A stretch of DNA of 64,000 nucleotides from an uncultured Granulosicoccaceae bacterium (GTDB lineage Bacteria; Pseudomonadota; Gammaproteobacteria; Granulosicoccales; Granulosicoccaceae), in the NCBI GenBank assembly GCA_938041955.1, contig CALISD010000021.1:1-64000 (forward strand), written 5' to 3'. How positions within the stretch are numbered: the first letter of the stretch is position 1; every line of letters begins with the position of its first letter. Under the pieces are notes generated by a model. That model searched no databases. It had not been told where the DNA came from and saw only the letters and a list, made by a program, of their open reading frames with translations. Below, in pieces: positions 11,594 through 14,988 of this stretch. The position numbers were made by a program, and so were the translations under genes.

Positions 11594-11939
11594 TTCCTTC
11601 AAAGTATTGGCAGATTTTAATGTAAATCTTGCCTGTTCAAGCCCTGCTTTCCTTGATTTGTCAGTTCAAACAATACACGATACGCTTGAATTTGCTTGAA
11701 TTGCATCAACTTAGGCCAATCTCCTGACAATTTACCTGTGTTTTCAGTCGTAAGCGGCTCAAAACGGTAGCCTGTACGAAGACTGTCAAAGCAGAGTGTT
11801 GTTTTTTAGCAACGTTCGAACTAAAGAAAGCATTTCAAACAATAATTTTTTTACTACCCCGACGCCGAATGCCCCGCCAGAAAGGCAGCGGCTCTCAATT
11901 TACTTACTGGCGAATTGTCCTCCGGAGGGACTTATTCAA

Positions 11940-13106
11940 ATGAAACTAGCTAAAAATATTGGAGCACTCGCGTCAGCAGCGGTTATCGCTGCTTCAATGT
12001 CTGCATGTTCCACTGCAGGCAAGATGAAGGACGGTGTAACTGGTACTGCTGCAAAAGTAATGGATGGCGGCGATGATGCCATGTCCGAAAAAAGCAAAAT
12101 GCTTGAATCACAGGCTGCGACGTTAGAAGCACGTGCCGCAGAACTGGACAAGCGAGAGTCAATGCTCGCCGAAAAGTCCAGCGCCATGGCTGCTGCCAGT
12201 GCAACTCCTGCCGGCTCAAACTACGGTGCCGGTGACCTGCTGCCACCGGGTGCTAAACCTGGCCAGTGCTTCACCCGCCTTTGGGTACCACCTCAATATC
12301 AGACTCTGTCTGAAAGAATTCTGGTTGAAGAAGAAGGCGAGCGAATTGAAATCATTCCTGCCACATTCAAAACGACGAAGAAGCGTGTTTTGGTAAAAGA
12401 AGCTTCTGAAAAGCTCGTTACTGTTCCTGCCACATTCAAAACTGTGAAAGAGCGGGTTATGGTAAAGCAGGCGACGAAGAAAATTTCACAGGTGAGCCCT
12501 GTCTATGAAACTGTCACTGAGCGAGTGATGGACAAGCCAGCTCACACTACCTGGAAGAAAGGCACAGGCCCTATCCAGAAGATTGATGAAACTACCGGTG
12601 AGATCATGTGTCTGGTAGAAGTACCAGCAACCTTCAAGACCGTGAAGAAGCGTGTTTTGAAGAAGCCAGCTTCAACCAACGTGCAAGACATTCCAGCGGT
12701 TTATGACACAGTCGATAAGAGCGTCATTGCAACACCTCCAACCACACGCAAAGTGGCAATCCCGGCGGTTTATAAAACCATTACCGTGACCGAAGAAGCG
12801 ACCCCTCCAAAAGAGCGCAGAATCAAGATTCCTGCAAAATATGCCACCGTCACCAAGCGAAAGCTGGTTAAAGACGGCATGATGGATTGGCGCGAGATTC
12901 TTTGCGATACCAACATGACTCGCGATCGCATCTCTGCTATCCAGACTGCACTGAAAGCTGCTGGCCACAACCCTGGCACAATCGATGGCGTCATTGGTGG
13001 TGACACCATGAAAGCTGTCAACGCATTCCAACGTAAGAAAGGATTGCCGGTTGATAGATACCTGAATATCGCCACCGTTCAGGCGCTCGGAGTGTCACCG
13101 AAGTAA
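11940..13106 (+). CDS. Putative lipoprotein: coiled coil + about 8 VPAxYKTV repeats + PG_binding_1-like domain
   Basis: ATG at 11940 preceded by tccggaggga; lipobox-like SMSAC; coiled-coil heptads; repeats; C-terminal ISAIQTALKAAGHNPGTIDGVIGGDTMKAVNAFQRKKGLPVDRYLNIATVQALG. ORF track start 11796 is probably too far upstream. Confidence 0.85.
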   Translation: MKLAKNIGALASAAVIAASMSACSTAGKMKDGVTGTAAKVMDGGDDAMSEKSKMLESQAATLEARAAELDKRESMLAEKSSAMAAASATPAGSNYGAGDLLPPGAKPGQCFTRLWVPPQYQTLSERILVEEEGERIEIIPATFKTTKKRVLVKEASEKLVTVPATFKTVKERVMVKQATKKISQVSPVYETVTERVMDKPAHTTWKKGTGPIQKIDETTGEIMCLVEVPATFKTVKKRVLKKPASTNVQDIPAVYDTVDKSVIATPPTTRKVAIPAVYKTITVTEEATPPKERRIKIPAKYATVTKRKLVKDGMMDWREILCDTNMTRDRISAIQTALKAAGHNPGTIDGVIGGDTMKAVNAFQRKKGLPVDRYLNIATVQALGVSPK

Positions 13107-13187: not shown

Positions 13188-13224
13188 CACCCGCTCCGGG
13201 TTATCCGGTGCGGGTTTTTTTTTA
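13188..13224 (+). terminator. Rho-independent terminator
   Basis: cccgc-(tccgggttatccggt)-gcggg followed by nine T; a second hairpin attggccc-aagtaa-gggccaat lies just upstream. Confidence 0.8.
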
Positions 13225-13326: not shown

Positions 13327-14988
13327 ATGTATCCAGAGAACATCGCGGCAAAAGGAATAGCTGCGCTCGTCTCATTTCTCCTGCTGATTTTGCCCCCAGC
13401 GATATTTGCGGATGAAACTTACGGCGCAACCCTTGTGGCTGTCGAACAAATCGACTCCGGCCAACACTCGCATCGAGTATCTGTACAACTCAACAACCGT
13501 GTAGAGCACTTACTGCTCAATGCACACCCTCATCTAAACGAACTTCTGATCGTAGATACCGAGGGCAATACGCATCAACAAAACGGCATTGCCTACACTG
13601 GAATCGTGGAATCCTTACCGGCTTCTTCATGGGCCAGAATCGTCATTGACGGGGACTACGTCGCTGGCACCGTCAACACTAACGGCCAGAGCGTACACCT
13701 TTCATCTGATGGCTCAGTGTTCAACACAGCAGATGTAGAACAAACTCTCGGCCACGATTCAGTGCTGTTGCCGCCGCCGCTCCCGCCAAAACGGCAAATA
13801 CAAGAGGCGGAATTATTTGAACAGATAGCAGTCCCCGTACTAACACCGTTTCTAGACCGGGAAGGGGTGGTGTCCACAGTGGCCCGAATCGGCGTCGTCG
13901 TCGACTCTCTTTACGAGGAAGCGATAGGCGGCAGAGGCTTGAGCAAAGCGATCGCTACCATTAACTCGGTGGACGGGTTATACCGAGAAAAATTCGGTCT
14001 GGCGTTAAAAGTTGATGTGGTTGTGCTGATCACAGATACAGAAACCCTGGTCTTGAACGGCGCTTCGCTTGAAGACAATCTGGGGCTGTTTCGCGACTAC
14101 CGAATTCAATCAGACCTCTTACCAGCCGACCTCGGGCTGGTGCATCTTTTTACCGGTATCGAGACCAGCGACGATTCAATCGGCCTTGCTTATAGTGGTG
14201 CAGCGTGTCGAACCGATGGCTACGACGTCAGTATGTCTCGACCATTTCGCTACCCGGTCATTTTAGCGGCGCACGAGATTGGCCATAACCTCGGTGCTAT
14301 GCACGATGACGAGACCACTGATTGCCAGAGCCTCACTGACAATTTGATGTTTTCTGAAATTAATTCAACGACCACACAGGAGTTTTCAAGCTGCAGCACC
14401 ACTGCAATAAACAACCGTTTGCAGCAAAGCGCCTGTTACGAAGCAGCTATCGATATCGGGCTCGCGATCACCCAACTCGAGTCAAATCAAATTCTCGCGA
14501 CTGTGACCAACCATGATACAGAACGAGCTTTTCCCGCAGCAAAATTACAGATAGACCTGAAAAACGCGACAATCGCTGAAGCACCAGCGAGTTGTGTGCT
14601 GGAAGCACCAACAAAACTCATCTGCACAATTGCAGCGACGTATGCAGGCGACGAGCAAGCATTGGCAGTGAAGTTGCGACTGGATCCAAATGAAGCGCGC
14701 ACAGTTAACGTACGTCTCGACCCTGTTGGTTTTTTCGATCTTACCGATGCTAACAATGCGGTTGAACTGATCATCCCACGTGAACAACCGGAACCATTGG
14801 CAAGTACCGGTGGCGAAATCACTGTTCAAGGGGCTGGTGGAAGTGGCGCAGGCAACGGAACAAGCGGCGCAGTAGCGACCGGTGGCAGCGGTGGTGGTGG
14901 GAGCTTCGCACCATGGTTGTGGTGGTTGCTTTTGCCCTGCATTTTTTACAGGCACTTTGGCATCCACGGCCGTAGCAAACTCAACTAA
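13327..14988 (+). CDS. Secreted reprolysin-like zinc metalloprotease with GlyGly-CTERM-like C-terminus
   Basis: signal peptide, HEIGHNLGAMHD (HExxHxxGxxHD), C-terminal GGSGGGGSFAPWLWWLLLPCIFYRHFGIHGRSKLN. Confidence 0.88.
   Translation: MYPENIAAKGIAALVSFLLLILPPAIFADETYGATLVAVEQIDSGQHSHRVSVQLNNRVEHLLLNAHPHLNELLIVDTEGNTHQQNGIAYTGIVESLPASSWARIVIDGDYVAGTVNTNGQSVHLSSDGSVFNTADVEQTLGHDSVLLPPPLPPKRQIQEAELFEQIAVPVLTPFLDREGVVSTVARIGVVVDSLYEEAIGGRGLSKAIATINSVDGLYREKFGLALKVDVVVLITDTETLVLNGASLEDNLGLFRDYRIQSDLLPADLGLVHLFTGIETSDDSIGLAYSGAACRTDGYDVSMSRPFRYPVILAAHEIGHNLGAMHDDETTDCQSLTDNLMFSEINSTTTQEFSSCSTTAINNRLQQSACYEAAIDIGLAITQLESNQILATVTNHDTERAFPAAKLQIDLKNATIAEAPASCVLEAPTKLICTIAATYAGDEQALAVKLRLDPNEARTVNVRLDPVGFFDLTDANNAVELIIPREQPEPLASTGGEITVQGAGGSGAGNGTSGAVATGGSGGGGSFAPWLWWLLLPCIFYRHFGIHGRSKLN

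Follow-up and report, generated by a model that had tools for sequence, protein, structure and literature searches.

A predicted lipoprotein from Granulosicoccaceae with a probable giant two-stranded beta-hairpin of 23-residue repeats next to a peptidoglycan-binding domain

The window analysed here is a stretch of 64,000 nucleotides from an uncultured Granulosicoccaceae bacterium. One of its genes encodes a putative lipoprotein of 388 amino acids, in which two blocks of 23-residue repeats very probably pair with each other, over their full length, as a single giant antiparallel beta-hairpin. Structure prediction, covariation, charge pairing and the matching of arm lengths together lead to this conclusion, and the topology, the register, the repeat period and the domain content are all strongly supported by computation. 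As the best explanation for the protein as a whole, we propose a periplasmic, probably outer membrane anchored, giant-hairpin mechanical element that is pinned to the cell wall (probability roughly 0.6). Within this reading, a role as a tether is likely, whereas the mechanical role, which we infer from the predicted architecture, is a tentative suggestion. The features of the gene and its product are collected in Table 1.

Table 1. Features of the hairpin gene and its flanks (window positions; residues in precursor numbering unless stated otherwise)
Feature	Position	Strand	Basis
Shine-Dalgarno-like GGAGGG	11924..11929	+	upstream of ORF 11940-13106; sequence reading
Gene for giant-hairpin lipoprotein, 388 aa	11940..13106	+	ORF; ATG at 11940; orthologues; synteny
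Signal peptide, lipobox MSA at its end	11940..12005	+	sequence; LSAC in orthologues
Cys23, predicted lipidated	12006..12008	+	sequence
Heptad-rich helix, mature residues 23-64	12072..12197	+	AlphaFold2 helix
Arm A: Cys110, four 23-aa units, Trp205	12267..12560	+	period; predicted strands; register
Hairpin tip loop KGTGPIQKIDETTG	12561..12602	+	loop length equal in 62/73 two-arm relatives
Arm B: four 23-aa units, Trp317; antiparallel to arm A, i + j = 430	12603..12899	+	strands; register
Cys224, hairpin tip, dispensable	12609..12611	+	kept in 69/73 two-arm relatives
Cys322, hairpin base	12903..12905	+	Cys110 and Cys322 kept in 73/73 two-arm relatives
PG_binding_1 domain (PF01471), residues 328-383	12921..13088	+	Pfam
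Intrinsic-terminator-like stem and T run	13190..13224	+	sequence reading, unscored

In both termini the protein resembles a tether. A preliminary description had pointed out a lipobox-like SMSAC and, as an inference, an outer membrane lipoprotein that binds peptidoglycan. The lipobox holds, with Cys23 in place and LSAC in the orthologues (97-39% identity), and the wider proposal fits the lipobox, the following residue and the C-terminal domain. By inspection, the lipobox cysteine is followed by serine and not by aspartate at +2 (MSAC|S), which points to Lol-dependent transport to the outer membrane. Lipidation and wall binding are thus presumed from sequence features. The lipobox is unrecognisable in 22/73 two-arm and 21/37 four-arm relatives, so lipidation is not family-wide. 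The heptad-rich segment is helical in the AlphaFold2 model, in agreement with the earlier account, with pLDDT values mostly between 61 and 87; this N-terminal helix of about 40 residues, which would span some 6 nm, is likely a coiled coil. The domain that had been called PG_binding_1-like matches the Pfam model with an E-value of 1.8e-13 (50.9 bits, cut-off 23) and is present in all 16 aligned members.

The repeats have a period of exactly 23 residues: autocorrelation reaches +0.86 at lag 23, is negative at lags 22 and 24, and has only one further, weak peak at 46. The repeat motif matches eight times in the protein, whereas 5000 shuffled sequences gave 0.06 matches on average and never more than 2. 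The units start at residues 116, 139, 162 and 185 and at residues 228, 251, 274 and 297, and a 20-residue insertion parts the two blocks of four. The preliminary description had counted about eight consecutive repeats of 24 residues; the number stands, but the length has to be corrected, and the units are not consecutive. It had also overlooked the conserved residues at the block borders. A cysteine precedes each block (C110, C224), a tryptophan ends it (W205, W317), and a third cysteine, C322, closes the repeat region. The protein follows the pattern of its family, Cys-arm-Trp, loop, Cys-arm-Trp-Cys, and its arms have the same number of 23-residue units (4+4). The earlier impression that the repeat lies outside named families was borne out: no model or sequence covering it was found in Pfam, NCBIfam, PHROG or the PDB sequences, which excludes a known repeat family among these resources, and in the relatives, divergent ones included, the repeat is likewise without a Pfam model.

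For structure prediction, the mature protein was submitted to AlphaFold2 together with 15 relatives. Strands of 7 and 12 residues alternate throughout both arms, separated by two-residue breaks, and the arm pLDDT is about 80 (mostly 76-85). The strand limits are mirror-symmetric around i+j=386 in mature numbering, or i+j=430 in the precursor. The pTM of the whole model is 0.32, and the model does not fix the curvature or the placement of the helix and the wall-binding domain. As both arms are periodic, mirror symmetry alone cannot tell a hairpin from local meanders. Arm A was therefore modelled alone, with its own alignment. It gave a pLDDT of 51, a pTM of 0.14 and not a single strand.

An independent view of the pairing comes from covariation, for which we used a simple method, APC-corrected mutual information, on a gapless alignment of 73 two-arm proteins, summed for each antiparallel register. 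The predicted register (x+y=86, equivalent to precursor i+j=430) scores highest of all antiparallel registers (z 5.4). When arms were permuted among proteins, 0 of 200 trials reached its score, and it came first in 92 of 100 bootstraps. It also remains first in a 70% non-redundant set and among relatives less than 50% identical to the window protein (z 4.4). The strongest 30 between-arm pairs include 18 within 3 of this register, against 2.1 expected. Charges that face each other at register 86 are opposite in 206 cases and alike in 55 (79% opposite, non-redundant set), while the share is mostly near 50% at registers away from 85-87.

These data bear directly on two other ways to arrange the repeats. 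Each unit could pair with its neighbour in compact local meanders or a solenoid, with turns at the two-residue breaks between predicted strands. Pairs around these breaks have no covariation excess in the two-arm set, which argues against local meanders; Pro-Ala breaks make poor hairpin turns, and the model of arm A alone has no strands. Local pairing is thus scarcely credible, and we reject it. The preliminary description had taken the repeats for a periplasmic spacer, extended between a lipid anchor at one end and the wall-binding domain at the other, as the order of lipobox, helix, repeats and PG_binding_1 domain along the chain would suggest. This is very unlikely. The arms pair antiparallel over their full length at one register with opposite charges, a single arm is not predicted to fold, and arm lengths are matched across the family (see below). 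Since the ends of a hairpin are neighbours, the repeats contribute next to nothing to the separation of lipid and wall and cannot act as a spacer. The spacer model was rejected on three grounds: the covariation at one register, the matched arms and the control with a single arm.

The hairpin model finds further support in the numbers of units per arm, which were counted with a position-specific matrix for the 23-residue unit in all fetched proteins. The arms are equal in 114 of the 123 complete non-redundant members, a count that is descriptive because relatives are not independent events. The main point is that there are several different arm sizes, each of them matched: 4+4 (73 proteins), 3+3+3+3 (31), 2+2 (6), 6+6 (2) and 3+3 (2). 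The 6+6 proteins (L086, L083) have an extra N-terminal region ahead of the hairpin. The nine members outside the rule include two genes that are cut off or broken (L050, L055), two proteins with a weak unit below threshold, in which the arms look equal by eye (L157, L158), and four divergent, degenerate members with uncountable units (L102-L105). In L055 (genome G185), the hairpin gene is broken by a TGA codon, and an apparently identical match exists elsewhere in the same genome. A true exception is L209 (genome G594, minus strand), a 10+6 protein with near-identical, recently expanded units; at this locus, two relatives without a wall domain, 4+4 and 10+6, are neighbours. A giant relative, L139 (genome G762, contig 220, 1-4896), has more than 1600 residues and about 50 units in a single basic array, together with a wall-binding domain and a Gly-rich tail; the contig ends before its start is reached.

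In the four-arm proteins of the 3+3+3+3 type (n=37), the predicted antiparallel register is the best one for arms B and C (z 4.35) and for arms A and D (z 3.8), and it is not the best for A-B or C-D. Such pairing would give one nested 6+6 hairpin, in which A and B would lead outward and, after a turn, C and D would lead back, with a joint mid-way. The B-C linker usually has 13 residues, as in the tip loop of the two-arm proteins, and about 30 residues link A to B. The net charge is negative for arms A and B and positive for arms C and D. At equivalent positions, A/B and C/D show parallel covariation as well. We take this signal for a remnant of arm duplication, since a linker of 30 residues is too short to return along a straight arm.

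The following arrangement would account for these data. Arm A would pair with arm B along its whole length, the hairpin would turn at the conserved KGTGPIQKIDETTG loop, and C110 and C322 would close its base. A hairpin brings the first and third cysteines (C1 and C3) together at the base and places the second (C2) at the tip, and a base disulfide between Cys110 and Cys322 is predicted from this geometry. The wall-binding domain would follow directly after the base, and the lipid anchor, helix and flexible linkers, N-terminal to that base, would span the distance from outer membrane to wall. With the beta-strand rise of 0.33 nm per residue, the stiff ribbon would be about 30 nm long if straight, and it would project sideways from the tether point. 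A straight ribbon of this length would not fit across a periplasm of usual width; it would have to run along the wall, be bent, or stick out. At the interface between outer membrane and wall, the favoured role for the protein, put forward tentatively, is that of a wall-pinned mechanical element, for instance a batten along the sacculus or a bridge to neighbours.

So long a two-stranded ribbon is unusual and may need partners. It is plausible that the protein forms oligomers through the helix, which has heptads. In a fuller version of this idea, the helices would join at least two chains, and the ribbons would lie side by side as a wider sheet, a fibre or a closed beta-tube. The two open edges of a two-stranded ribbon, the opposite net charges of the arm pairs in four-arm proteins and the existence of giant relatives are in line with such assemblies, but the Foldseek likeness to barrel stems is found only at TM-scores of about 0.10 or less, and we consider the proposal possible yet rather unlikely. 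A distinctly improbable extension, taken with all its parts, would make the family a novel type of envelope fibre. Its ribbons, each with two to six repeat pairs or with many more, would join edge to edge via their helices and complementary charged edges, duplication of units in both arms would fix their lengths, and the wall-pinned sheet or tube would set envelope mechanics or cross the periplasm.

The giant-hairpin lipoprotein was compared with several known systems. Like Pal and OmpA-like lipoproteins, such as Pba (PA1041; PMC7947798), it is a predicted lipoprotein with a non-covalent peptidoglycan-binding domain, through which it would tether the outer membrane to the wall. The protein described here differs in having PG_binding_1, its sole Pfam domain, instead of OmpA (PF00691), which was not found in the 388 residues, and in the giant hairpin of 23-residue repeats. 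Braun lipoprotein Lpp has a lipid anchor and a helix between outer membrane and wall, as predicted here too, but it is a short helical protein, in contrast to a 388-residue precursor with a beta-hairpin and a binding domain, and the conserved C-terminal lysine for covalent attachment is missing here (the last residue of the orthologues varies between K, M, Q and N). The G5-E rods of SasG and Aap are, similarly, long exposed-beta rods of tandem repeats fixed to the envelope. SasG is a head-to-tail chain of small triple-stranded domains with its ends far apart (PMC4458895), whereas the hairpin protein zips two arms of one chain so that the ends meet; no Pfam match to G5 was found in it or its relatives. 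Outside the wall domain, Foldseek mostly matches proteins whose stems are very long beta-hairpins, a resemblance that is a shape cue only. Beta-barrel pore proteins such as lysenin likewise contribute a very long two-stranded hairpin per chain, but the present hairpin is far longer, has a soluble K/E/T-rich repeat pattern and is unrelated in sequence; in the absence of a sequence match, and with such low TM-scores, a relation to pore proteins was rejected. SltB3 and the N-domain of SleB have domains homologous to the C-terminal wall-binding domain, and the enzyme domain of such proteins is absent here. By the features tested, the protein is tether-like at its ends, as Pal, Pba and Lpp are, and SasG-like in its long exposed beta-structure, and it belongs to none of these groups.

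The distribution of the family was surveyed within the Pseudomonadota. It occurs in 47 of the 48 genomes of the window's order. Among 369 sampled gammaproteobacterial genomes, 97 have any match, many to the wall domain alone, and about 47 have repeat-bearing members (E-values below 1e-10, repeats included). Shorter versions are found in other Pseudomonadota, apparently Alphaproteobacteria, and several of them have no wall domain or no lipobox. Four members are encoded in the window's genome itself. Besides the window gene, there is one for a lipoprotein with 58% identity to it, and two more code for four-arm proteins whose signal peptide is of the ordinary type. One paralogue adjoins the gene for a 1065-residue coiled-coil protein with a C-terminal OmpA domain (L025:1140-4334). 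A viral or mobile origin was rejected, as there was no phage match, no relative on viral contigs, and a single plasmid record. No paper on the giant-hairpin family was found in the open-access literature text. The family thus appears to be widespread in one large bacterial class and undescribed.

In the Granulosicoccaceae, the gene order Xni-RluE-hairpin gene-M12 protease-IspB-RpmA-ObgE is conserved, and RluE adjoins the hairpin gene in Shewanella as well. An operon with the window's neighbours was rejected: the order is kept within the family Granulosicoccaceae, but the genes are mostly housekeeping genes. The M12 protease gene (window 13327-14988) adjoins the hairpin gene in all Granulosicoccaceae loci that show synteny. 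It encodes a reprolysin-like metalloprotease whose C-terminus is rich in Gly and runs into a hydrophobic stretch; this tail resembles a GlyGly-CTERM sorting tail (weak NCBIfam SVAGG match). Elsewhere, mscL is close to the hairpin gene in six loci from about three lineages, directly downstream on the same strand in five and convergent in one. L020, L170, L178 and L192 come from unrelated lineages and have mscL beside the hairpin gene, with a recurring DUF4332 gene close in several of them. These neighbours could suggest that the protein is not a passive tether but acts together with the MscL channel in the response of the envelope to osmotic stress. MscL was not detected in the window's genome, however, so the link is not universal, and the window neighbours are housekeeping genes and a metalloprotease. 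We therefore regard a partnership with MscL as unlikely.

If the proposed structure is correct, bacteria have a widespread, unnamed route to very long stiff elements, in which matched arms are zipped together beside a wall-binding domain. This would be a new structural class among envelope proteins, and it would show that repeat number can be constrained in pairs. Equal arms, a fixed register and opposite charges would then provide a testable rule for a family that is absent from the model libraries searched. The order of anchor, repeats and anchor along a chain need not mean that the repeats are a spacer.
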